From IMG/VR virus record IMGVR_UViG_3300025087_000114, positions 1 through 47,489 of that record: a DNA stretch of 47,489 nt. The stretch is one strand, 5' to 3'. This document shows positions 11,501 through 41,831 of this stretch, piece after piece (position 1 is the first letter of the stretch; each line of letters opens with the position of its first letter). Source of the DNA: a virus. The translations under genes and the position numbers were made by a program. The notes beneath the pieces are model-generated. The model ran no database searches, was not told the DNA's origin, and saw nothing but the letters and a program-made list of their open reading frames with translations.

Positions 11501-12486
11501 TACTCATACCTGAGAAGATTACCATTTATATCATAGACAGGAATTTTACCCGACTGTTGCCCACCGCCCATAAGCATTTGTAACTGAGTTTCTTCTTTAC
11601 TTGGTTTAGATAAACTCCATCCTGGAGGAGGTTCATACTCTGATTCAGAAGAGACAGGGACCATCTTGGTTTTACCACCAGGGCCATAGATAACCGTGAG
11701 TTTTGATTTTTCTTTTGAGAGTCTTTTATCAAGTCTCCCCTCAAGGCCAGCCTGAGATTTATATAATCTTTTTTCCGCAGCAGCATCACGTTTTGCTTGT
11801 CTTTCATCAGCTTTAGTTTCTCTTATCGTCTGTCTCTCGTCAGCCGCACGTTCTCTTTCGGTTTCAAGTTCAAGTCTTGCTTTTTCTCTTTTCTCTTCCA
11901 TCGTAAGGGCATGTTTCTCTTTACGATCTTCAAGCATCATACTCTTTAGTTGACTTTCTCTATCCTTGAGATATTGCCTATACCTCATAAAAGATTCTTG
12001 ACGATATTTTTTAAGAGGTTCACCACCGATAAGTTTCTTAGGGTCTATCCCCATCTCAGTAGCAACTTCCCCTGAAAAATCTTCATACTTCTTAGAGGGT
12101 CCAAGTAAACTCTCTTCCTGAGTCATAGAGGGAGGAGTAGCAGACTGAGAAGTAGGGGGGAGAAAAGAAGGAGGAGCTTCTTCTTGACCTCCACCAATGG
12201 AACTTAATATAGATGCTATAGGATTAAATGTTTTCGGGTCTACTGGTCCCATAGTATTTATTGTAGGAGAAGGAGAAGGTTTTGCTTGTTGAGGTTGACC
12301 TAAAGCAGGCATTTCTATCCCAAGTTTCTTAGCTGCATTTTGCATAGAGGTATAGGCTTCAGGTGAACCTGTTTGATTAAACAGATTAGATAGAACATTC
12401 AGTTCTTCCATACCCGCTTGACGCTCTCTCTGTTGGCCCTGAAGAACCATACCAATAATACCCATTGCAAGATCAGCAATACTCAT
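11500..12486 (-). CDS. Internal virion-type protein, coiled-coil rich
   Basis: A 328-residue protein. The first 35 residues are hydrophobic and helical (MSIADLAMGIIGMVLQGQQ), the middle is Pro/Ser-rich and disordered, and residues about 180-275 are a dense Lys/Glu/Arg coiled coil. Overlaps the large internal protein gene by 1 bp. Position and composition suggest a virion core or ejection component. No catalytic motif. Confidence 0.55.
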   Translation of the reverse strand: MSIADLAMGIIGMVLQGQQRERQAGMEELNVLSNLFNQTGSPEAYTSMQNAAKKLGIEMPALGQPQQAKPSPSPTINTMGPVDPKTFNPIASILSSIGGGQEEAPPSFLPPTSQSATPPSMTQEESLLGPSKKYEDFSGEVATEMGIDPKKLIGGEPLKKYRQESFMRYRQYLKDRESQLKSMMLEDRKEKHALTMEEKREKARLELETERERAADERQTIRETKADERQAKRDAAAEKRLYKSQAGLEGRLDKRLSKEKSKLTVIYGPGGKTKMVPVSSESEYEPPPGWSLSKPSKEETQLQMLMGGGQQSGKIPVYDINGNLLRYE

Positions 12487-12488
12487 AA

Positions 12489-12722
12489 TTATTTACCGCC
12501 GTAATTTTTAAAGAAACTCTGAATGAAATTATTTACTGTATCGTCTTGGCTTGAAGAATCACTCATGCCTGTCATACTTGTAGTGGATGTAGGTTGTAAC
12601 ATTGTTGTTTGCTGTTGTTTAGGTTGTAGCATATTCTGCATAAGCCCTGCATTTGCTGTAGAAGAGTTACCTTGTTTCCGGTTCATAATCATAGAAAGAA
12701 TCATAGAGATAAGTTGTCCCAT
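12489..12722 (-). CDS. 77-residue Gln/Ser/Thr-rich hypothetical protein
   Basis: A short protein with a hydrophobic N-terminal helix (MGQLISMILSMIM) and a Gln/Thr/Ser-rich middle. It lies 2 bp from both neighbours in a virion-protein operon, so it may be a minor virion protein. Its start resembles that of the next gene (short hydrophobic amphipathic N-terminus), which may mark a shared localisation role. Confidence 0.5.
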   Translation of the reverse strand: MGQLISMILSMIMNRKQGNSSTANAGLMQNMLQPKQQQTTMLQPTSTTSMTGMSDSSSQDDTVNNFIQSFFKNYGGK

Positions 12723-12723
12723 A

Positions 12724-13212
12724 TTACATCACTGTTAACATTTTATAGAGATTGTTTAACGAACCAGTAAGTATCGCCTGTGTATTATCTGTCGTTTGTT
12801 TAACAGAAGCAGGAGAACCGCCACCCATAGTATTTAGAGTTTGAGAAGGGCTTATACCGTAAAGTTGCATAATGGTCTGGAGTTCAGGGAGATTCCCTTT
12901 TGTCAGATTTTCTCCAGCTTGATATATATTCCTAACCATTCTAGGATCACCAGCATTTATACCCATTTGGCCTGCCGTCTCTTTCATTTGGCCTATGGTG
13001 TTAGCATAGTTCTTTTGGCCTATAGTTGTGCTACCACCAGCCGCTTGTTGAAGTAGTTGATTGAGCATAGGGGTTAAGTCACCTAAACCCTCCATACCTG
13101 TCTTATAATACTGTGTAAGATAAGGAGCAAGCTCTTTCAAAATACTTGCCTGTATCTTCTGTGTTTCAGAAGGGACAGTTACTTGCTTTGTATCAGCATC
13201 ATATAATCCCAT
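12724..13212 (-). CDS. Minor virion-type protein
   Basis: A 162-residue protein with Gln/Gly-rich helices and a GGGSPAS turn, typical of phage internal head or tail components of this operon position. No enzyme motif. The gene follows the 151-residue gene by 3 bp. Confidence 0.5.
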   Translation of the reverse strand: MGLYDADTKQVTVPSETQKIQASILKELAPYLTQYYKTGMEGLGDLTPMLNQLLQQAAGGSTTIGQKNYANTIGQMKETAGQMGINAGDPRMVRNIYQAGENLTKGNLPELQTIMQLYGISPSQTLNTMGGGSPASVKQTTDNTQAILTGSLNNLYKMLTVM

Positions 13213-21186: not shown

Positions 21187-22230
21187 TCACCAATTTTTAC
21201 CCTCTAAAACAGATTCATAAAGCTTAAGATAATTAGTTGCCATATTTTCTCTTGAAAAAAACTCAGCTCTTTCTCTGCAATCTTCCGATTTTATAGTATC
21301 TATTATACCATCTTTTAAGTAGATAGGCAACTCTTGAATGTTTTTAGCTACAAATCCTGTAACTCCATGCTCTACCAATTCTGGGATAGCACCTGAAGCA
21401 GTAGCAACGACAGGGCAACCGCAAGCCATTGCTTCGACCACTGTGAGGCCGAATGGCTCTTCCCACCCTGGAGTACAAGGGAGAATGTAACATCTGGACT
21501 TAGAGAAGAAATCAACTGTTTTCTCTCTACTAACACCACCCCAGTATCGTATCTTACCATAATCACTACAATTTTTCATAAGTTGCATAACATAGTTTTG
21601 ATCTTCTACCATTTGGTCATCGCCAACAAGATCGCCTTCAAGCCCTAAAAGTTTAAGGAGATCAACAAAAACATGTGCACCCTTAAAAGGGGTCATACGA
21701 GCCAGAAATAAGAACCTGCCATTACTTACGTGTTCTTTGTATTTGTATTTGTCCAGATCAATCCCGTTATAGACAAACTTAGCAGCGACGTTCAGACCCT
21801 TAGAAATACTGCCTGCATGGTGCTGGCTTATCCCCACCATGTTCGGATGCTCTACTGGAGGGGGCGAATCATAGGGAAGCATCCCATGTAAAGTAGATAG
21901 CACGTTCAGCCTGGGGTTATCCCTTTTTAACAAATAGATTGGTTTAGTCCATTGATGGCAATGGATTACCATATCTTTATTATCTTCAGACATAAGCCAA
22001 GGAGCATATTTCTGGAAAGCATCAGCCTCCCATTGCCTAGCATCAGAAGAGCAAGGACCACAATCAATAAGGTTTACACCTTTTACTTCTGATCCTGTAG
22101 GAGCTACCATATACACTTCATGCCCCATATCTGTGAGACATTCGCCAAGATCGGCAACAACCTGTTCAAGCCCCCCGTAGCCCAAAGGAGGTACACGCAA
22201 AACCCCACTACTCAGCAAACATATTCTCAT
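21187..22230 (-). CDS. GT4-family glycosyltransferase (first)
   Basis: A 347-residue GT-B enzyme. N-terminal PPLGYGGLEQVVADLGECL and GHEVYMVAP form the acceptor domain; EPFGLTVVEAMACGCPVV (about 263-280) is the GT4 donor-binding signature. It transfers a sugar from a nucleotide-sugar to a glycan or protein. The gene starts 3 bp from the stop of the second GT4, in the sugar/surface-modification cluster. Acceptor cannot be told from sequence. Confidence 0.85.
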   Translation of the reverse strand: MRICLLSSGVLRVPPLGYGGLEQVVADLGECLTDMGHEVYMVAPTGSEVKGVNLIDCGPCSSDARQWEADAFQKYAPWLMSEDNKDMVIHCHQWTKPIYLLKRDNPRLNVLSTLHGMLPYDSPPPVEHPNMVGISQHHAGSISKGLNVAAKFVYNGIDLDKYKYKEHVSNGRFLFLARMTPFKGAHVFVDLLKLLGLEGDLVGDDQMVEDQNYVMQLMKNCSDYGKIRYWGGVSREKTVDFFSKSRCYILPCTPGWEEPFGLTVVEAMACGCPVVATASGAIPELVEHGVTGFVAKNIQELPIYLKDGIIDTIKSEDCRERAEFFSRENMATNYLKLYESVLEGKNW

Positions 22231-22233
22231 GGT

Positions 22234-23307
22234 TCACCATCCCTTCCCTTCTATCACTTGCTGATACAATTTTTCGTATTCAAGAGAAGCATTCCTCCAT
22301 GAAAACTTTTCCGCCTGAGTTCTGGCATGTTTCCGCAAATTAAAACCAGCATGAAATCTGCTTGAGTTATTGTACCTGGGCAAGACCTTTTGAATAGTTG
22401 TAACAAACTCGTTTTTGCTGTTACAGATAAACCCAGAGTTACCATCAGAGACGAGTTCTGGCATAGCTCCATTAGGTGTTGTTATGACAGGGCAACCACA
22501 GGCCATTGCTTCGGCAACGACAAGACCGAAGCATTCAAAGTACTGGACAGGGTAAAGGAAAGCATATGCCTTACGGTAAAGTTCTCTTTTTCTTTCATGA
22601 TGCGTTGAGTCAAGAAGAAGTTCTTCATAAGTTACATTTTTTATTTGAGAAATACGATCAATATATTTTCTCCCGTATTCTGCATGATCCGCAAATTGCG
22701 TACTTCCAGCTACCTTTAATTCAAAACCCAAAAATTCTGCTAGGTCTAACGCTAGATCAAGTCCTTTGTCAGGATGGAAACGGGCAATCCACAGAAACCA
22801 TTCTTCCCTTCCATTATTCTTATTTTCACCCTCGGTATAAAATTCTGTGTCGATACCCCAATAAATCATTTCAGTATTCAAGCCAAAAGACCTAGCATCT
22901 TCTTGCCACGCCTTAGACCCTGTAATTACATTAAAAGGAGGCCTAGGCATGTTATAGCATCTGCCGTTTATAGTATTAATTATTTCCCGCTTGCCATATA
23001 AATACCGAAGTCTTTCCGCGACAATATGATCCAAACTACAGTCATGGACAACATCACACGCCATGAATAAATCATGATAAGTTTTTTCAATCCCAACTTC
23101 AATGCCATAATCAATTGATCCTTTTTCCGTGTTTGGGATAACATGTAAAAACCCGTTAGGTGGTGTTAGGCTTCCTTTAGGGGCAAAGAGATGAACTTCA
23201 TGTCCTATCTCTCCTAACGTCTTAGCCAACCCCCAAAAGTAAGATTCACCACCATATGCTAAAGGAGGGCATGTATTTGTGTATGGTGATATAATTGCTA
23301 TCTTCAT
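22234..23307 (-). CDS. GT4-family glycosyltransferase (second)
   Basis: A 357-residue GT-B enzyme related to its neighbour. It has PPLAYGGESYFWGLAKTLGE, RFHPDKGLDLALDLAEF and FGLVVAEAMACGCPVITT with the GT4 donor-binding glutamate. The ATG overlaps the carbamoyltransferase stop by 4 bp. Two GT4s in tandem imply sequential addition of at least two sugars. Confidence 0.85.
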   Translation of the reverse strand: MKIAIISPYTNTCPPLAYGGESYFWGLAKTLGEIGHEVHLFAPKGSLTPPNGFLHVIPNTEKGSIDYGIEVGIEKTYHDLFMACDVVHDCSLDHIVAERLRYLYGKREIINTINGRCYNMPRPPFNVITGSKAWQEDARSFGLNTEMIYWGIDTEFYTEGENKNNGREEWFLWIARFHPDKGLDLALDLAEFLGFELKVAGSTQFADHAEYGRKYIDRISQIKNVTYEELLLDSTHHERKRELYRKAYAFLYPVQYFECFGLVVAEAMACGCPVITTPNGAMPELVSDGNSGFICNSKNEFVTTIQKVLPRYNNSSRFHAGFNLRKHARTQAEKFSWRNASLEYEKLYQQVIEGKGW

Positions 23308-24770
23308 GCTATCACCAATACATCAATGCGATTAGTTTCTAATGCCCATTTAGCTTCATTTTCACAAAAAATAATAGGTTCTTCATGAGTATTAAAAGAA
23401 GTGTTTATTAATACTGGAATCCCTGTTAAATTATAAAAAGCTCTGACTATCTGATAATAAAAAGGATTAGTTTTATAACTTATGACTTGTGGTCTTACTG
23501 TGCCGTCTACATGAACAACAGCAGGTATTTTATTTTTCCATTCCTCTTTAACCCTCCAACAAGAAGTCATAAAAGGGGCATTATCTTTCCCTACATCATA
23601 ATCCTCTAAGATATCATTAGCAAATTCTTCAAGGACAACAGGGGCAAAAGGCATAAACTCCGTCCTATTGAGCCGTTGGTTCAATGTTTTATTTATGTTA
23701 GCATCCCTTGGATCGGCAAGGATTGTTCTGTTACCTAATGCTCTAGGACCAAACTCCATAGCCCCTTGAAAGAGTCCAACTATTTTGCCATCCTGAATCC
23801 ATTTAGCAATTTCATCAGGGTTCTCCCATGCCCTTTCTTTAGGCAATCCTAAATACATATGCTCTTGTCTCTTGACAGGGATAGGATCAAAAGCACACAA
23901 AGCAGCACCGATAGACAGCCCATCGTCAAGCATGGGAGGTGCTACATAAAATTTGTCTACCAGTTGGCTTATTTTCATGTTAGCTAACACATTGGCAAAA
24001 CAGCCACCAGAAACAGCAACCTTATCATTGCGATTTGTGTTATTACAAAGCCATTCTAAAAGGATTTTCTCAAAAGTGAATTGGCAAGAAGCAGCCATAT
24101 CTTCTCTTGTTATTGGTATACTACTGGCTACTAATTCGTTAATCCTTTTAAAGATTATATTTTCTTCTCTTTTACCAATAGACCTTATCTTTCCACCTAC
24201 AACACAGAATAAATTATTAAACCAACCCCTATTTTTCCCAGAAGCAGCAAGTCCCATTACCTTGCCTTCATGCCTATTCGGGGTAAACCCTAAAGCTTCT
24301 GTGACATAATAATACAGCATCCCAAAAGCTTCATCTTCGTCTTTTCTGAGACTTTCAACCCTTGTGATCTTACCACCTTTGCAATGATTTATGGACCCGA
24401 AATAATCTTCGCCACCACCGTCAAGCGTAAATACTTTACATTCATCCCATCCAGACCATGCATAAGCCAAAGCTGCATGGGCTTCATGGTGAGGGACTAA
24501 GGTAGCATTAGGGTAAAGTTCAAGAACCTTGTTGGTATCTTGTGCATGGGTTCTCCCAGAATGGAGGTTAGGGGTAGCAATCATAACTCTATCAAAATCC
24601 CATGGTGAACAGCCAAGTTCTTTACAGATATACATTATTGATCTAGCTGGTATACCTCCTTGTTTTTTGTTACCTGTTAGCCTTTCCTCCTCCAAAGCAA
24701 TAACAACTTTACCGTCTTCCAAAACAGCGGCAGAAGAATCATGACCACAATAAAGACCTAAAACCCTCAT
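23304..24770 (-). CDS. NodU/CmcH-type carbamoyltransferase
   Basis: A 488-residue enzyme. The N-terminal half (1-300) has MRVLGLYCGHDSSAAVLEDG and HHEAHAALAYAWSG plus TLDGGGEDYF, the ASKHA-like carbamoyl-adenylate part; the C-terminal half has GPRALGNRTILADPR and FAPVVLEEF, as in TobZ/CmcH. The family moves carbamoyl from carbamoyl phosphate onto a hydroxyl of a sugar or antibiotic, or in some phages onto modified DNA bases. The start follows GAGGAAC. No base-modifying synthase is present, and GT4 neighbours favour sugar carbamoylation. Confidence 0.9.
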   Translation of the reverse strand: MRVLGLYCGHDSSAAVLEDGKVVIALEEERLTGNKKQGGIPARSIMYICKELGCSPWDFDRVMIATPNLHSGRTHAQDTNKVLELYPNATLVPHHEAHAALAYAWSGWDECKVFTLDGGGEDYFGSINHCKGGKITRVESLRKDEDEAFGMLYYYVTEALGFTPNRHEGKVMGLAASGKNRGWFNNLFCVVGGKIRSIGKREENIIFKRINELVASSIPITREDMAASCQFTFEKILLEWLCNNTNRNDKVAVSGGCFANVLANMKISQLVDKFYVAPPMLDDGLSIGAALCAFDPIPVKRQEHMYLGLPKERAWENPDEIAKWIQDGKIVGLFQGAMEFGPRALGNRTILADPRDANINKTLNQRLNRTEFMPFAPVVLEEFANDILEDYDVGKDNAPFMTSCWRVKEEWKNKIPAVVHVDGTVRPQVISYKTNPFYYQIVRAFYNLTGIPVLINTSFNTHEEPIIFCENEAKWALETNRIDVLVIA

Positions 24771-35529: not shown

Positions 35530-36867
35530 TCAATAACCTGTTCTTGGGTTCATCTTGCCCATACGCTCACTTTCTCTTCTTTTTGCTTCTTCTTCCTCTT
35601 CTTCTTTTAAAGCTCTTTGAGGGTTATCGTTAGCAATATACTTGAGACAGTCCATTAAATGTGCCTTACCTGATTTTTCATTCTCCCAGGTATACCCCTC
35701 AAATTCCTCTATTGTTTTCTTACAATCCTTAAAGATGAGCAGCTTTGGTTTTTTATTCTCTTCATCACCGAATACAGGTTTAGGAGTAAGCATTTCACTA
35801 ATCTTGAACCAAGCTCCTTCAAACTTATTATTTGCTTCAATACAAGGGATGCCTTCTCTTCTAAATTGCATCTGGACTGAAATGGTTTGCCCTCTTAGTT
35901 TGTCGATCAACTTGGCGTTAGGGTCTATAAGATACCTGGTTACCGGGCATTTCTTCTCAATCTGTATAAGCCTTTTTGCAACTTCTGGGATGGTTAAATC
36001 TGGGTGAAACATTTCATGACAAACATACCATGTTCCGTATTCATCTACTGTCAGCCAGAGTATGCCAACTGGAGTAGAAGGATGAGGGTCAATAGCGCAG
36101 TAGACAGGCCAATGAGTAGGGATTCCAAACGGGTCAATAACATTTCTTTGTCGAGAGAATCTTTTGTAAATAAGACCAGACCACGCGACAAATTCACCAT
36201 CATATTGTTCCGCGAAGACATCTTCCGGTAACTCCTTTTTAGCTCTATCATATTCCTCTTTTGGAAAATATGGATTCTCTATTACCGAAACCCCTATCCG
36301 TGCCCAATAATCTTTGTCACCTTCTACGAATGGTAAATAGAATCTTTTGTATAACCAATTATAACCATGTGGTGTTGTAGGGATTATTACCCTTCCATTC
36401 CTTGACCCTAACCTAGCCCTAAGATAGTTATCATAGGTTTCTTCTTTCAGCCTTGACCCTTCTGAAAGAATCATCCAATCTACCTCCTCCCCCAGTAGTG
36501 AGTCAAGGTTTTGTTCCGATTTGGTAAGGACTTCACTCCCCCAAGGGAATAACAAGGATTGTGGCCCTGGTGTGGTAAAAGATACATTAAGTTCCCTTTT
36601 TGGCTTGAAGCCAAGTTTGTTAATAAGAGCATCATGGATATAACGAAATTCTTTACTTGGCTGATCATAACTCGGACCAACGATCCATCCTCTTGTTCCT
36701 TCTTTAAGTATATCTGTAAGAACGTCTCTTGAACCGCAGAGAGACTTCCCAAACCTGGAACCAGCACCAAGGAATTTGAACCTGTGTTCACTCTCATGAA
36801 ACTCTATTTGGACAGGGGAGGGATTATACTCTATCGTTTTAAATATAGCAGCTTTAACCTTGTCCAT
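35530..36867 (-). CDS. Terminase large subunit
   Basis: From ATG 36867 (after GAGAGAAAA) the product is 445 residues. GAGSRFGKS (34-42) is the Walker A motif, DWMILSEGS is Walker B-like with the catalytic acidic residue, and RNGRVIIPTTPHGYN is the coupling motif. The C-terminal nuclease has the acidic triplet YCAIDPHP, YLIDPN and HLMDCLKY. It packages DNA into the head and cuts it. The small subunit was not found with certainty. Confidence 0.92.
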   Translation of the reverse strand: MDKVKAAIFKTIEYNPSPVQIEFHESEHRFKFLGAGSRFGKSLCGSRDVLTDILKEGTRGWIVGPSYDQPSKEFRYIHDALINKLGFKPKRELNVSFTTPGPQSLLFPWGSEVLTKSEQNLDSLLGEEVDWMILSEGSRLKEETYDNYLRARLGSRNGRVIIPTTPHGYNWLYKRFYLPFVEGDKDYWARIGVSVIENPYFPKEEYDRAKKELPEDVFAEQYDGEFVAWSGLIYKRFSRQRNVIDPFGIPTHWPVYCAIDPHPSTPVGILWLTVDEYGTWYVCHEMFHPDLTIPEVAKRLIQIEKKCPVTRYLIDPNAKLIDKLRGQTISVQMQFRREGIPCIEANNKFEGAWFKISEMLTPKPVFGDEENKKPKLLIFKDCKKTIEEFEGYTWENEKSGKAHLMDCLKYIANDNPQRALKEEEEEEAKRRESERMGKMNPRTGY

Positions 36868-37009
36868 TTGATTTTCTCTCAAACTTCAAAATCTTATGCT
36901 CGTAAAATTTATTCAGCCAGCCACAACAGTCAAAACACAGGGTTTCGACATTTGATTTGAATAAAATGTATAAATCAGAACCAATTCTACCACATACTCT
37001 ACATTTCAT
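36854..37009 (-). CDS. 51-residue zinc-finger protein at the array edge
   Basis: ATG 37009 gives KCRVCGR and LCFDCCGW, a four-cysteine zinc ribbon with a helical tail; it overlaps the terminase start by 14 bp. Its start codon lies only 2 bp from the left end of the cassette array (37012), so its original leader was cut off by the insertion. Confidence 0.5.
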   Translation of the reverse strand: MKCRVCGRIGSDLYILFKSNVETLCFDCCGWLNKFYEHKILKFERKSNGQG

Positions 37010-37011
37010 AG

Positions 37012-37239
37012 TTATTTTGTTTCCAGTAATTCCAACGATGCCGATCTCTTTGCGTCCGGTAACAGCGGGCACCAGTCGGGCGTTTTCGTCCCATAGGATG
37101 CAACGTGCTTTCGCCCTATTTCAGGGTGATTGCACGTAATATCGTACCCGCTGTCACTCTGGCACTGGAAACGCTCAGATGTATGGTGGAGACAACCACC
37201 GCAGGAATATGAAATTGTCACAGATGGTCCGTTTCTCAA
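37012..37239 (-). CDS. Cassette 1: 75-residue cysteine-rich hypothetical protein
   Basis: The longer frame opens with a GTG (37296) inside the attC site, so the TTG at 37239 after GGAGAGACAAA is chosen. The product has SCGGCLHH, FQCQSD, DITCNHP and DWCPLLP, a Cys/His layout seen in small environmental proteins of unknown role. Its TAA (37012-37014) lies in the boundary core GTTATTT, like the other cassette genes. Confidence 0.55.
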   Translation of the reverse strand: MRNGPSVTISYSCGGCLHHTSERFQCQSDSGYDITCNHPEIGRKHVASYGTKTPDWCPLLPDAKRSASLELLETK

Positions 37240-37263
37240 TTTGTCTCTCCGATCACCGCACAA

Positions 37264-37321
37264 AATAACAAGACATTGGAACACGTCTCGTTTCACTCGC
37301 GGTTCAATTTAGTCGTTATGC
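37264..37321 (+). other. attC-like site A
   Basis: AATAAC (37264-37269), spacer AAGAC, arm ATTGGAAC (37275-37282), then arm GTTCAAT (37302-37308), spacer TTAGTC and core GTTATGC (37315-37321). The arms pair except for one extra G in the left arm, the extra-helical base of attC. It lies between cassettes 1 and 2. The RNA-ligase gene stops inside the core. Confidence 0.85.
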
Positions 37322-37900
37322 GCCTTGAAGTGACTTTGGCGTTTCATCCTTCTCGATTGTCTTTTTGAATCCGAGATTTCCGGCAGTGTGAAAAACCACT
37401 ATTCCCTCCGGCCTCATAAATCCCGGTGCCGCCTTGCTGCCGTACGTCCGCAGAAGGTCAAGCTCCAATTCGATTATTTGGGTATTGAACGGCCCCCTGT
37501 ACAGTTCCGGCACGACATGACAGCAGGCAGGGCGGACAGCAGCATCAGCCCACCGGCTAACATTGAAGAGGCTAAAGCGCTTCTCTTTCATCCCATAGCC
37601 TCGCTGAATGCCTTGACCCCACCACTCACCAAAGTGCCGACCGTGGCCGAGTTGCAGCAGCTCTTCTGCGTTAGCCAGACACCACCGCGCAAACCCCGCA
37701 TTGTCGTTGTCAGGGGTGATCCAACGCGTACGGCTCCCGGCGAAGAGGGCAAGGCCATCTTTTTCGTAGATGGCACCGGGGATTGAAAAACCTTCCATCT
37801 CAACGATTGCAACCTGGCCGTTTGTGCCGTCGATCTTCTCGCTAATGATTATTTCGCGGGAAAGTCGCGGCATTTTCGGAAACTCTTGAAACTCCATAAT
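37316..37900 (-). CDS. Cassette 2: RNA ligase-like nucleotidyltransferase
   Basis: ATG 37900 follows AAAGGAGC at 7 bp; a longer frame begins inside attC B. The 194-residue protein has EKIDGTNG (Lys21 as the adenylated residue of motif I), FGEWWG (motif III), PEGIVVF (motif IV) and FKKTIE (motif V). This is the catalytic core of the Rnl2/RNA-ligase family, shorter than the 250-330 residues usual, so a C-terminal domain is lacking. It would seal RNA ends using ATP. TAA lies in the attC A core. Confidence 0.85.
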   Translation of the reverse strand: MMEFQEFPKMPRLSREIIISEKIDGTNGQVAIVEMEGFSIPGAIYEKDGLALFAGSRTRWITPDNDNAGFARWCLANAEELLQLGHGRHFGEWWGQGIQRGYGMKEKRFSLFNVSRWADAAVRPACCHVVPELYRGPFNTQIIELELDLLRTYGSKAAPGFMRPEGIVVFHTAGNLGFKKTIEKDETPKSLQGA

Positions 37901-37923
37901 TTGCTCCTTTGGTGGCAAACGGC

Positions 37924-37986
37924 ATATAACAACCGCTTGCAGAATGATGTCGCTGCGCTCCACATCTGAAGCGGCAGCCGTTATAC
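37924..37986 (+). other. attC-like site B
   Basis: ATATAAC (37924-37930), spacer AA, arm CCGCTTGCAG, loop, arm CTGAAGCGG (37966-37974), spacer CAGCC and core GTTATAC (37980-37986). One extra G in the left arm. The YopX-like gene stops in the core. Confidence 0.85.
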
Positions 37987-38403
37987 ATCTCTAGTTTCAT
38001 CGTAGATGTTGCCGACTACTTCAAACTCTTTTTTCGCGTACACCCATAACTGAATATTCCCATCATCATCGTGGTCACTGGTCTTATTCCTGCACCACCA
38101 GCCCGAATATTTATCCGACCACTCGACGACATGGTGGAGATACCGCCAGACATTCACGTCCAGAAAATGAGGCACAGCCAGAATGTCACCCTCAAAAACA
38201 TCCTTTCCGTTTTTGTCGCTGAGTCCTGTGAATTGCATCGCATCCAGATTGTTCAATTCGTCCAGAGAAACAATCGAATCGTCCGGTCTGCGGAGTATTT
38301 CACCCATGACGATATATTCCCCGAACAGGCTGATCGCGTGAGGTGTATCATGTACCCACTGTTTACGCCCCTTGTCGTATATCCTGAATTTCATTTGTCG
38401 CAT
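37981..38403 (-). CDS. Cassette 3: YopX-family protein
   Basis: A 140-residue protein with MKFRIYDKGRKQWVHDT at the start, LDAMQFTGLSDKNGKDVFEG near residue 56-75, VVEWSDKYSGWW and EVVGNIYD at the end. These are the family signatures of YopX, seen widely in phages and mobile elements; its role is unknown. GGAGGG lies 5 bp before ATG 38403. TAA is inside the attC B core. Confidence 0.85.
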   Translation of the reverse strand: MRQMKFRIYDKGRKQWVHDTPHAISLFGEYIVMGEILRRPDDSIVSLDELNNLDAMQFTGLSDKNGKDVFEGDILAVPHFLDVNVWRYLHHVVEWSDKYSGWWCRNKTSDHDDDGNIQLWVYAKKEFEVVGNIYDETRDV

Positions 38404-38420
38404 ATAAACCCTCCTTCAAT

Positions 38421-38472
38421 GTATAACCATCGCATCCAGCAGAGAATCCTGCTGATGCTTAATCCGTTATGC
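38421..38472 (+). other. attC-like site C
   Basis: GTATAAC, spacer CATC, arm GCATCCAGCAG (38432-38442), loop AGAATC, arm CTGCTGATGC (38449-38458), spacer TTAATCC, core GTTATGC (38466-38472). The left arm has one extra C compared with the right arm. Short loop. Confidence 0.85.
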
Positions 38473-38476
38473 GTAA

Positions 38477-38761
38477 CTACTTCAACCGGCCCCGTGTCCC
38501 GCGCTCATCATTAATTTTCATTTTACGGAGGACAGCCGCTTCGATGTTGATGCCGTGATTTTCTGCCAGGTCGATAGTCCGCAGAATGATGTCGGCCAGT
38601 TCCTCGCCGAAATGGTCAGTCGGTTTTTCACCGCGACACTCGTTCGCCGCCTCACCACACTCGGAAACAACCAGCATCAGACATTCCAGAGGTGTTTTAT
38701 TGTGCCAGCCTTGACTTTCAACCCATTCCCAATTTCTACGCGATAGTTCATTGAGGTGCAT
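38477..38761 (-). CDS. Cassette 4: MazG-like nucleotide pyrophosphohydrolase
   Basis: A 94-residue protein with SECGEAANECRG and FGEELADIILRTIDLAENHG, the EXXE and EEXXD type acidic metal sites of all-alpha NTP pyrophosphatases. The family clears nucleotides and alarmones; phage copies can blunt the stringent response. ATG 38761 follows GGGGGATTAA. The TAG stop lies 5 bp from the attC C core. Confidence 0.85.
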   Translation of the reverse strand: MHLNELSRRNWEWVESQGWHNKTPLECLMLVVSECGEAANECRGEKPTDHFGEELADIILRTIDLAENHGINIEAAVLRKMKINDERGTRGRLK

Positions 38762-38785
38762 TTAATCCCCCGAATTTGAGTTATC

Positions 38786-38837
38786 GGATAACTGATTTGT
38801 TATTTCATGGCACCAGAACGCATAAGATATGTTAGAA
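38786..38837 (+). other. attC-like site D (degenerate)
   Basis: GGATAAC (38786-38792) and GTTAGAA (38831-38837) with only a weak arm pairing (TGTTAT with ATAAGA). The gene stop in the core and the spacing agree with the other sites, but the arms are poor, so the call is tentative. Confidence 0.45.
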
Positions 38838-39497
38838 TGCTAGTAGTTGCTGCTGTTGTGCTTGCTCTATTCTCAAACAAGCCGTTTCAAAGTGGCTTTC
38901 TTCCCGCTCGCAGCCGATGAATTTCAAGCCGAGGTTCATGGCTGCAACGCCGGTTGATCCGCTCCCCATGAAGGGGTCAAAAATAGTTTCAGGTTGTCCC
39001 GCCTGGACGATGCACCATTGCATAACCGTCACCGGCTTTTGCGTGGGGTGGAACCGCTCCTCCGGCTTTGCCTTCTGAAATCCATTCCAGAGGTAGCGGA
39101 GCAGGCGGACGGCCTTGTTAAGGTTCGTCCATGCCATTTCAGCATCAGCAAAATCAGAGCCGCCGTTCTCCTTGTCCCAGATCAGCCAGCACTTTGCAGG
39201 AGGGAGGCTGTAATAGTTCCCGCCGAAAATGACCTGAATCGGAGCGGTTTTTCTGACGGCCTGCATGGTTTCATCGTCAATCGGTGCATCATCCCACTCA
39301 CCAGGCGCGTAATCAGTCGGGCGGCATCCCTTCCATTTCGCTGTAGGCTTTGCCGCTTTCGTGCGTACAGCGGCCTTTCTGCTTTCACCGATCCCATAAG
39401 GGGGGTCAGTGACTACAGCATCAGCCGTGATTTGCGGCAGAATGTCCCGGCAATCGCCAAGGTAAAGTGTTGCATTTCCGATGATTCGCTTTTGCAT
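38832..39497 (-). CDS. Cassette 5: DNA N4/N6 (beta-class) methyltransferase
   Basis: From ATG 39497 (39500 possible) after GAGG, 221 residues. DPPYGIGES (31-39) is the catalytic motif IV, followed near residue 177 by FDPFMGSGST, motif I: the order (IV before I) is the beta class. HPTQKP is motif X-like. It methylates adenine-N6 or cytosine-N4 in DNA. A phage orphan methyltransferase can protect DNA from host restriction. TAA is in the attC D core. Confidence 0.9.
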   Translation of the reverse strand: MQKRIIGNATLYLGDCRDILPQITADAVVTDPPYGIGESRKAAVRTKAAKPTAKWKGCRPTDYAPGEWDDAPIDDETMQAVRKTAPIQVIFGGNYYSLPPAKCWLIWDKENGGSDFADAEMAWTNLNKAVRLLRYLWNGFQKAKPEERFHPTQKPVTVMQWCIVQAGQPETIFDPFMGSGSTGVAAMNLGLKFIGCEREESHFETACLRIEQAQQQQLLAF

Positions 39498-39513
39498 CAT
39501 TTCCTCAATCGCA

Positions 39514-39575
39514 TTCTAACCACCGGGCAGCAGCAGGCCGAAAAGGCCCGGCTGCTGTGCCGGTAGCCGTTATGC
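39514..39575 (+). other. attC-like site E
   Basis: TTCTAAC (39514-39520), spacer CA, GC-rich arm CCGGGCAGCAGC, loop CGAAAAGG-like, arm with GCTGCTGTGCCGG, spacer TAGCC, core GTTATGC (39569-39575). Strong stem, though the extra base is on the right arm by alignment. The 68-residue gene stops in the core. Confidence 0.8.
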
Positions 39576-39776
39576 CCCCAAATACCGAACCACCTTAAAC
39601 CATGTTCGCCGCCAGCCGTCTTTCACGCAGGAATCGTGCTGCATAGAAAAAATGACTATTTGCACGCCTATTTTGTCGCTTTCTCCAATGAAAAAAGCAT
39701 AGTTGAAGATCAGTAATCCAATTTTTGACCGCCGTGGTATCGCTTCGCCGAGATTAGGGTAATATGCAAATTTCAT
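39570..39776 (-). CDS. Cassette 6: 68-residue hypothetical protein
   Basis: ATG 39776 follows GGAGGTAGTC; the longer frame runs back through attC F and is not used. The product is beta-rich and aromatic (IGLLIFNYAFFIG), ending RTWFKVVRYLGA. No family recognised. TAA is in the attC E core. Confidence 0.5.
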   Translation of the reverse strand: MKFAYYPNLGEAIPRRSKIGLLIFNYAFFIGESDKIGVQIVIFSMQHDSCVKDGWRRTWFKVVRYLGA

Positions 39777-39808
39777 CTGACTACCTCCGTGATGAAGAAT
39801 TGAGACGG

Positions 39809-39884
39809 GCATAACAAGCGCATCAGCCTCTTCCTTTTTCATTGTCGCTCCTTTGCCCGGCAGGTCATGCGCGTCCCGTTAGCG
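39809..39884 (+). other. attC-like site F
   Basis: GCATAAC (39809-39815), spacer AA, arm GCGCATCAGCCT (39818-39829), loop of about 30 bases, arm AGGTCATGCGC (39862-39872), spacer GTCCC, core GTTAGCG (39878-39884). Left arm has one extra base. The 85-residue gene stops in the core. Confidence 0.85.
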
Positions 39885-40136
39885 AGACTTGCCAATGAAC
39901 TCTTTACGGATAGCCTCTGCTATATGTTGTGAGGCATAAGCACCAGTACAAGCAGCGTCAGTAAAATATTTCCGGCAAATCTCGATTATCTGTTCTACCA
40001 TAAATTTCTCCGCCCACAAAATGCCAGCGGAACGCCCCGCCGTAAAGGCTACCGAAATATCGCAGGACGGATGGCCGTCAGAGTCTTGATACAGATTTTT
40101 ACGATGCCAGCTATCAAACCATTTATCGAATTGCAT
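39879..40136 (-). CDS. Cassette 7: 85-residue hypothetical protein
   Basis: ATG 40136 follows AGGAGG at about 4 bp. The product has FDKWFDSWHRKNLYQ at the N-terminus and VEQIIEICRKYF in the middle, a small mixed helical protein; the start-like pattern recalls short phage proteins. No function known. TAA lies in the attC F core. Confidence 0.5.
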   Translation of the reverse strand: MQFDKWFDSWHRKNLYQDSDGHPSCDISVAFTAGRSAGILWAEKFMVEQIIEICRKYFTDAACTGAYASQHIAEAIRKEFIGKSR

Positions 40137-40152
40137 ACATCCTCCTAATTCT

Positions 40153-40215
40153 CGCTAACCAGTGGCCGGAAACCGACCGATAAAGCCCGTCGGTTCAGCC
40201 ACAGGCCCGTTTGGT
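40153..40215 (+). other. attC-like site G (array end)
   Basis: CGCTAAC (40153-40159), spacer CA, arm GTGGCCGGAAACCGAC, loop, arm GTCGGTTCAGCCAC (40189-40202), spacer AGGCCC, core GTTTGGT (40209-40215). The left arm has one extra base. The core GTTTGGT departs from the other cores, as expected if its TTTGGT half is phage sequence at the insertion site. Confidence 0.8.
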
Positions 40216-40231
40216 TCGGAAGTTTTCAATT

Positions 40232-41125
40232 TCATCCCTCATAATAAGTTAACGGACATTGGTTGAATTTATCTATAAACTGGAAACTTGGCCTATGGAA
40301 ATAAAATCCATATTGACCTTCAGCTTCACCACCCATCTCCCTGTGCTTGCAGCAATCTATGATACAATCATATTCCCTCTCTAATTTCTCTATTGTTTGG
40401 CCAGAAGGAAGGGAGCGAATGTCAAACCATTGTTGACAAAGTCTCTCTTTCTTTTTATTTCTCCAGATCATAAAGACATTATCGGCTAAGTCTGATATTT
40501 CACCAGCACCACGTATATCGAATTTTCCAGGCTTCTCTTCTTCTGTAGCTCCTTTTCTGGAATGGGCTATAATATTGACATGAACCTTGTGTTCTTGAGC
40601 GAAATTCTGGAAGCTATCTACAAAATTCTTTTGGCCCTTGTAGTCTTCTGGATCAAGACCACACTTCATAAGGCTATCAATAAAGAAATGGTTAACCCCC
40701 TCTTTTTCAAAAGCACGTTTAAAAACCCTCAATAGAGTATCCTTGCTTCCTGTCCCGGTTTTATCGTAAATAAAGATTTTCTTTCCTAGCCACTCAAGGG
40801 CATTTCTTATTTCCAACTGTGAAGGATTAGCTTTGCCAAGCACCTGTCTAACCATCCGGTACAAAATTTTCATACCTGACATTTCAAAAGAAGCTATTAA
40901 CCCTTTATCTCCAAAATTGGTCATATCAAGACAGACCTGAGAAGTAAAAATAGATTTGCCATGTCCGTTATACCCAGACCAAATAGAAACTTCTCCAGGG
41001 TAAACTCTGAATGATAACTTCTCCCAATGGAAAGAGTTACCTATAGGTTCGTTGTTAAGAGGATAGAACCTTTCTGTAACGGTTTCAATAAACTCACAAG
41101 CAGACCTAATAAGATCATCTGACAT
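40232..41125 (-). CDS. DnaB/T7-gp4-type replicative helicase ATPase domain
   Basis: From ATG 41125, 297 residues. GYNGHGKS (51-58) is Walker A, NHFFIDSLMK is Walker B and a Gly/Arg-rich RGAGEISDLAD loop is the sensor/arm region of RecA-like helicases. The size is that of the C-terminal ATPase of DnaB or T7 gp4 without the N-terminal domain or primase. It unwinds DNA at the fork after loading by the initiator gene upstream. Its stop is followed within about 20 bp by the array end. Confidence 0.85.
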   Translation of the reverse strand: MSDDLIRSACEFIETVTERFYPLNNEPIGNSFHWEKLSFRVYPGEVSIWSGYNGHGKSIFTSQVCLDMTNFGDKGLIASFEMSGMKILYRMVRQVLGKANPSQLEIRNALEWLGKKIFIYDKTGTGSKDTLLRVFKRAFEKEGVNHFFIDSLMKCGLDPEDYKGQKNFVDSFQNFAQEHKVHVNIIAHSRKGATEEEKPGKFDIRGAGEISDLADNVFMIWRNKKKERLCQQWFDIRSLPSGQTIEKLEREYDCIIDCCKHREMGGEAEGQYGFYFHRPSFQFIDKFNQCPLTYYEG

Positions 41126-41831
41126 AGCCAAACCCTAAATCTTCTTGAACTTCGTCTAAATATCTTTCCTTATTGAGCCAAGTAGTAGCATAAGGGATAT
41201 ATTCTTTTTCCCTTGCCAAGCAGTTTTTACCTTTCTTCTGGTTTTCGACTGCTTTCATTATAAGGTCTATAGTAAAGTTACTATATTTCTTACGATCCCA
41301 GATTCTCTTAGATTGAGACTTCCCATCGTGTCTAGGATAAATGGTCCAGAATTCCTCAAACCTGTTGTCGATAATTTTTAATGCATCCTCTTTATCTTCA
41401 GGAAAAAGAATTAGGTTTTGAGGTTCGATAGACAATATATCTTTTTGATGGTTAATATGATGGTTATATAGTGGTGCATCACCGTTCACCACCCCCGGTG
41501 CATCACCGTTCACCATAGGTTTGCAACCCATTGATTCTTCTATGGTGAAAATTCTTTCACCACCCCCTACCCTCACGAAATATAAATTAGCCGTATGGAT
41601 CATTTTTTCAGAGAATCTAGGCAATACTTCAACAGCTTTGGCTTTTACTAAATTAGCAATGTTATATTGGACAGCCCTATCAGTTAAATCACATTTTTCT
41701 CCGATAGTTCTAACCCTGGGCCAGCAATAGCCTTCATCATTAGCGAAGTCACAAAGGCAAAGCAATACCATTTTTTGCGTAGTTGTCAACCCTTTTGTAT
41801 TCCATGCTTCAGACATAAGCTTAATTGACAT
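41115..41831 (-). CDS. Replication initiator with wHTH domain
   Basis: From ATG 41831, 238 residues. The N-terminal 90 residues (LTTTQKMVLLCLCDFAND, CWPRVRTIGEKCDLTDRAV) form a winged HTH of the phage replication-initiator kind, and the C-terminus has FEEFWTIYPRHDGKSQSKRIW, the pattern of phage replisome organisers that recruit helicase. It overlaps the helicase gene. The coding sequence holds two 19-bp repeats and a palindrome (see repeat), like an internal origin. Confidence 0.75.
   Translation of the reverse strand: MSIKLMSEAWNTKGLTTTQKMVLLCLCDFANDEGYCWPRVRTIGEKCDLTDRAVQYNIANLVKAKAVEVLPRFSEKMIHTANLYFVRVGGGERIFTIEESMGCKPMVNGDAPGVVNGDAPLYNHHINHQKDILSIEPQNLILFPEDKEDALKIIDNRFEEFWTIYPRHDGKSQSKRIWDRKKYSNFTIDLIMKAVENQKKGKNCLAREKEYIPYATTWLNKERYLDEVQEDLGFGYVR
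41473..41515. repeat. Two 19-bp direct repeats inside the initiator gene
   Basis: GGTGCATCACCGTTCACCA at 41473-41491 and again at 41497-41515, 24 bp apart, so the encoded VNGDAP unit is repeated. Phage initiators such as lambda O bind iterons placed inside their own gene, so these may be origin iterons. Confidence 0.7.
41544..41561. repeat. Perfect 7-bp inverted repeat next to the iteron-like repeats
   Basis: GGTGAAA-ATTC-TTTCACC, 29 bp from the second iteron-like repeat and in the same gene. The sequence shares GGTGAA with them (TTCACC). It may be another binding site or a cruciform. Confidence 0.6.

Follow-up and report, generated by a model that had tools for sequence, protein, structure and literature searches.

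Reversed genes in an integron-type cassette array between the helicase and terminase genes of a tailed phage

Do the regularly spaced hairpins in a virus genome without an integron integrase gene represent genuine attC sites, the recombination sites of integron gene cassettes, and if so, how did such cassettes come to lie there? This question is raised by a block of ~3.2 kb (positions 37012–40216) in the IMG/VR virus record IMGVR_UViG_3300025087_000114, which was analyzed over its whole length of 47,489 bases and is referred to here as the window. Family matches of the Pfam/PHROG type identified genes for a portal protein, a head protease, a tail spike and the terminase large subunit (TerL), thereby indicating that the window belongs to a tailed phage. 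The original prediction described seven integron-type cassettes, each consisting of one gene and an attC hairpin, in a block richer in GC than its surroundings. The gene map bore out the presence of one gene per hairpin interval, and the GC content was 50.4% in the block versus 39.2% in the rest of the genome. The location had been given as the late operon, which is loose wording; the position within the operon could be narrowed to the interval between the genes for a DnaB-like helicase and TerL.

The window was searched with three covariance models that contained no window sequence. Model R1 was built from 20 bacterial attCs (Vibrio, class 1 and Shewanella integrons), R2 with published phage sites added to these and with scoring unfiltered over all bases of the window, and R3 from attCs of phage arrays only. 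As positive controls, the models recovered the published attCs of phages PH101, MW202573, P12002L and TJE1. At E ≤ 10, R1 gave only two matches in the whole window, sites 1 and 2 (19.7 and 19.4 bits). The top ranks in R2 were sites 1, 2 and 3 (25.4, 21.2 and 14.1 bits; E = 6e-4, 6e-3 and 0.32, respectively), and R3 placed sites 1, 3 and 2 first, all on the plus strand and with E = 0.006 for site 3. The same three predicted hairpins thus ranked first in 47.5 kb. A model-free scan of both strands for TAACNA, a stem of at least 5 bp and CGTT detected exactly four matches, sites 2, 5, 6 and 7, all on the plus strand, while the mean in 500 shuffles of the block was 0.03 matches. Sites 5, 6 and 7, which have low model scores, carry longer right spacers and resemble the P12002L site that was apparently used in a published recombination assay (PMC9892861). 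At six of the seven sites, the R boxes have their cores (nnnTAAC ... CGTTRnn) and the arms of the hairpin are bulged. The remaining one, site 4, has cores, but was supported neither by the three models nor by the core scan and was dropped; because it failed all tests, six of the seven predicted sites stand, all of them above chance. An Rfam search returned no attC match. A cluster of attC sites lacking an integron integrase (CALIN) is defined by at least two model-recognized attCs, and sites 1 and 2 were recognized at E ≤ 0.01 in two window-free models. As a whole, these data indicate that the block represents a genuine array of integron-type cassettes, a CALIN carried by a tailed phage, with six supported attC sites.

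The most unusual feature of the array, the strand of its genes, had been omitted from the original prediction. The attC sites have plus polarity according to the models, the core bases (in all six supported sites, a C precedes GTT and an A occupies position +2 following TAAC) and the left-arm bulges at sites 1, 2, 3 and 7, while all seven genes are on the minus strand and are therefore antiparallel to attC. Six of these genes terminate in a TAA within the nnnTAAC core. In a canonical cassette the attC lies 3′ of the gene and in the same polarity, and none of the cassettes in the window has this arrangement. Among 58 attCs of IMG/VR phage arrays, the stop codon fell exactly in the R′ core in 30 cases and in R″ in 4, versus 1 and 10 in the bacterial controls (Fisher p = 3e-6, with the reservation that cassettes within one array are not independent). 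Counted per phage, antiparallel genes predominated in 12 of 15 (binomial p = 0.035), with some of the phages assigned from gene strand alone. The polarity calls of R1, the bacteria-only model, agree with the antiparallel reading of the phage arrays. By gene strand, PH101 (four attCs on the plus strand, genes on the minus strand), MW202573 (four attCs on the minus strand, genes on the plus strand) and P12002L (attC plus, genes minus) are all antiparallel. In the published assay, IntI1 recombined the strands of the PH101 and P12002L attCs that we call bottom more efficiently than the top ones (PMC9892861), so that the polarity call fits experiment. The same paper treats PH101 as a set of ordinary same-direction cassettes, and the passages of its main text covered here do not mention a reversed layout. 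The antiparallel gene layout in most of the phage arrays examined is new relative to the published CALINs. Bacteroidota offered little as a wider control for orientation, since only 2 of 148 genomes had a strong attC, one each.

The original prediction stated that no common equivalent was known inside the late operon of a tailed phage. This claim has to be given up: CALINs in virulent as well as temperate phages were reported by Qi et al. in 2023 (17 in 10,705 genomes; PMC9892861), who showed attC × attI1 recombination with IntI1 for five of six phage sites tested, and about ten further IMG/VR contigs were found here. Matches to attC at E ≤ 0.05 were present in 10 of 74 IMG/VR contigs encoding the RNA ligase of the array, among them the doubtful contig G056, which R3 did not confirm, and in 2 of 45 contigs with methylase relatives. 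At E ≤ 0.01, R3 matched only 1 of 50 other phage contigs, an already known case, so false positives appear to be rare. No attC was found in relatives of the MazG and TerL genes, and a blastn search with known attCs in phage records yielded the published cases and a P1 record that bears an integron, with no new clear phage array. The richest contig, G087 (IMGVR_UViG_3300031949_000035; 61.5 kb), carries 20 attCs in two arrays of mostly reversed cassettes (30.2–35.8 kb and 46.8–52.4 kb), with genes for a Mom-type modification protein, a C5 methylase, N6 methylases, an RyR-domain protein and an RNA ligase; the TJE1 array contains a 62% relative of one G087 gene. The cargo of G066 (IMGVR_UViG_3300020171_000156) includes a Lar-like restriction alleviation protein. 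The stop codon of the RNA ligase gene adjoins an attC in the window, G087, G101 and G096, and N6_N4 methylases are shared by the window, G087, TJE1, P12002L, G005 and G096. These recurring reversed arrays in RNA-ligase phages, with up to 20 attCs, and their recurring cargo are new findings. Judged by its families, the cargo (RNA ligase, DNA methylases, Mom and Lar) looks like counter-defence. In addition, one attC core of ~50 nt is 98–100% identical at L163:12672–12728 and L162:2955–3011 (both contig G089) and at L166:9019–9075 (contig G094), and the flanking sequences, which diverge from the R boxes onward, are unrelated on both sides, indicating that one attC can join different genes. Relatives of the array neighbors in G087 and G066 were sought for signs of cassette turnover, and the search returned the same contigs only. 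In G066, a tyrosine recombinase gene (12351–12782), scoring under the integron-integrase cut-off, lies ~1.8 kb from the array of seven attCs.

The absence of an integrase, as predicted, was confirmed with the tyrosine recombinase family PF00589 and the integron integrase model TIGR02249, neither of which had a match anywhere in the record (a Vibrio prophage control scored 494 bits). Of the components of a complete integron (intI, attI and the promoter Pc), intI is thus missing and no attI was identified. Comparison with relatives that lack the block, which had been suggested as a check, was also informative. In five of them (L003, L004, L008, L019 and L020) the helicase gene lies beside the TerL gene, with nothing or one small gene in between, and the attC models found no attC in these contigs. 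The array-free relatives share 52–56% helicase identity with the window and are too distant for reconstruction of the empty site at base level; no near-identical empty relative was found.

The cassette genes and the other features of the region are listed in Table 1. A sequence resembling a ribosome-binding site precedes each of the six cassette genes whose starts were inspected, and the block has no conspicuous internal promoter. The methylase of the window has relatives at 46 IMG/VR loci, versus one distant match in a pattern-based search of 84,980 genomes of bacteria and archaea; this lone match is a metagenome-assembled genome of Lutibacter, without attC. A Vibrio integron methylase was considered as the same cassette and ruled out (29% identity over 68 residues). 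No Pfam or PHROG match was obtained for orf94, no phage match by tblastn for orf85, and no solved structure was matched by the sequence of the RNA ligase.

Table 1. Features of the cassette array and its flanks in the window (a slash within a core marks the proposed junction)
Feature	Position	Strand	Remarks
TerL gene (left flank)	35530–36882	−	family matches
Left boundary core GTTATTT	37012–37018	+	proposed G/TTATTT junction of phage DNA and first cassette; orf94 ends AAATAAC here
Cassette 1 gene, orf94	37012–37296	−	Cys-rich, no assigned family; stop TAA in core; true start probably further in
attC site 1	37263–37321	+	rank 1 in R1, R2 and R3
Cassette 2 gene, RNA ligase (PF09414)	37316–37897	−	stop TAA inside attC 1 core; own ribosome-binding site
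attC site 2	37924–37986	+	R1, R2, R3, core-plus-stem scan
Cassette 3 gene, YopX family (PF09643)	37981–38403	−	stop TAA in attC 2 core; own ribosome-binding site
attC site 3	38421–38472	+	R2 and R3
Cassette 4 gene, MazG-like pyrophosphohydrolase	38477–38761	−	stop TAG 4 nt from core
Claimed site 4	38786–38837	+	neither attC fold nor covariance support; a degenerate attC or none
Cassette 5 gene, N6_N4 DNA methyltransferase	38832–39500	−	stop TAA in TAAC core
attC site 5	39514–39575	+	core-plus-stem scan; R3 9.6 bits on +
Cassette 6 gene, orf68	39570–39776 (ORF caller 39570–39842)	−	no assigned family; stop TAA in attC 5 core
attC site 6	39809–39884	+	core-plus-stem scan; 6-bp arm, long loop
Cassette 7 gene, orf85	39879–40136	−	no assigned family; stop TAA in attC 6 core
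attC site 7, right array end	40153–40215	+	core-plus-stem scan; R′ = G/TTTGGT
DnaB-like helicase gene (right flank)	40232–41131	−	16 bp from array; family matches

On the left, a short open reading frame (ORF) ending at about 36854 separates TerL from the array. The slot before TerL (36854–37072 in the window; upstream of TerL in L004, L005 and L008) holds small unrelated ORFs that differ from relative to relative, and may therefore be a variable site. In L003 (165–2552), TerL is broken by an intein-like insertion that starts with CFTEDLEV and ends with FMTGN. Elsewhere in the window (21187–24770), genes for two glycosyltransferases and a Nol-like carbamoyltransferase lie amid structural genes.

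We propose, with a probability of about 0.72, that a tailed phage without a recombinase of its own received an array of six or more attCs and about seven genes between its helicase and TerL genes, that the integrase acted in trans and that the cargo serves counter-defence. The first cassette would have entered a GTT (attG-like) target by means of an integron integrase supplied by the host, and later cassettes would have been added at attC sites. Each cassette would pair an attC with a gene that has a ribosome-binding site of its own, the gene being antiparallel and taking its stop codon from the R′ core (TAAC). The genes would be expressed from the leftward operon of the phage, and the array may be kept since its cargo aids the phage against host restriction and tRNA-cutting systems. 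The block has a core at either end, at 37012 and 40209, and the odd R′ box on the right is probably a hybrid of the attC G and phage DNA, which would fit entry at a GTT target. In Vibrio cholerae, excision was raised when the recombining strand was on the lagging-strand template; if replication follows transcription in the phage, the reversed layout would put the recombining strand on that template.

Several points weigh against this proposal. The covariance models score sites 5–7 close to noise, leaving the core-plus-stem scan as the one test that picks them out, site 4 was lost, and the exact boundaries of the block are deduced from the cores. No close relative with a differing set of cassettes was found, and cassette gain or loss was consequently not seen directly. 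The counter-defence role is read from family names. As to orientation, the bacterial control is limited to three integrons with 27 attCs, PH101, MW202573, P12002L, G064 and G029 are reversed by gene strand and not by the stop-codon test, and TJE1 (by annotated gene strand), G005 and G096 are parallel and G089 is mixed, so that reversal is common, not universal.

The block could instead be a fragment of a host chromosomal array that illegitimate or homologous recombination brought over in one piece, a passenger that the phage did not build. Its GC content and the lack of an integrase would suit such an origin, as would the temperate Vibrio phages that carry array fragments; Qi et al. propose this route for phage CALINs (PMC9892861). 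However, the cargo is of a phage type, as the distribution of the methylase relatives illustrates, the block ends coincide with cores, and host cassettes are mostly parallel whereas those of the window are antiparallel; we consider whole capture unlikely. There is a smaller chance, perhaps one in eight, that the reversed layout is an artefact, with the models picking the wrong strand of near-symmetrical phage attCs in otherwise ordinary cassettes. A stop codon in a core followed by a hairpin does have the look of an ordinary parallel cassette, and the bulges at sites 5 and 6 are ambiguous. Against this, R1 calls one strand almost throughout and does so correctly for the Vibrio, Shewanella and class 1 arrays, and the core bases of the supported sites and the strand preference of PH101 and P12002L in the assay agree with the call.

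That the hairpins only look like attC and act as transcription terminators or as stem-loops for RNA processing between phage genes is highly improbable, even though one follows every gene on the transcribed strand and one terminator-like match overlaps site 1: the TAAC and CGTT cores are conserved in a single polarity, models of bacterial attCs place three sites at the top, terminator-like matches number 4 versus 6.5 in shuffles, and similar phage sites recombine with IntI1 (PMC9892861). An assembly chimera of phage and integron contigs, to which the sharp change in GC at both block ends might point, is hardly credible, given that a second IMG/VR contig, 3300009285_001023 (11,909 bases), is 100% identical over the array and both flanks, although the two assemblies may not be independent, and that similar arrays recur in other phages.

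Like the CALINs of TJE1, PH101, P12002L and MW202573 described by Qi et al., the array in the window is a cluster of attCs without intI in a tailed phage, with methyltransferase cargo (PMC9892861). It differs in that its six supported sites go with genes for an RNA ligase, a YopX family protein, a MazG-like protein and a methylase, and in that relatives without the array have been mapped. With sedentary chromosomal and class 1 integrons it shares R boxes, L arms, extra-helical bases and one gene per attC, but those systems possess intI and attI and have each attC on the 3′ side of a gene that shares its polarity, whereas here the genes are reversed. The attG consensus is GWT. Cassette insertion mediated by attG sites was reportedly described by Loot et al. 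in 2024; on sequence likeness, both ends of the window array resemble such G/TT junctions outside attI. Bacterial integrons are reportedly presented as anti-phage defence libraries in 2025 papers in Science and Nature Microbiology. The phage arrays resemble these in being a cassette pool devoted to the phage–host conflict, but differ in that the carrier is a phage and the cargo looks counter-defensive.

A wider proposal, to which we give slightly less than even odds, is that tailed phages share a cassette pool of their own, with reversed genes and counter-defence cargo, in which an integrase acting in trans passes cassettes, or attCs without a gene, from one phage to another that is unrelated to it. 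If so, cassettes of the phage pool that were captured into a bacterial integron would be backwards and silent. Integrons are regarded as bacterial devices; phage arrays with such cargo, reversed in layout and recurring in unrelated phages, suggest that the cassette pool serves both bacteria and phages. Since the genes attached to one attC differ between phages, they would also bear on the long-open origin of cassettes.

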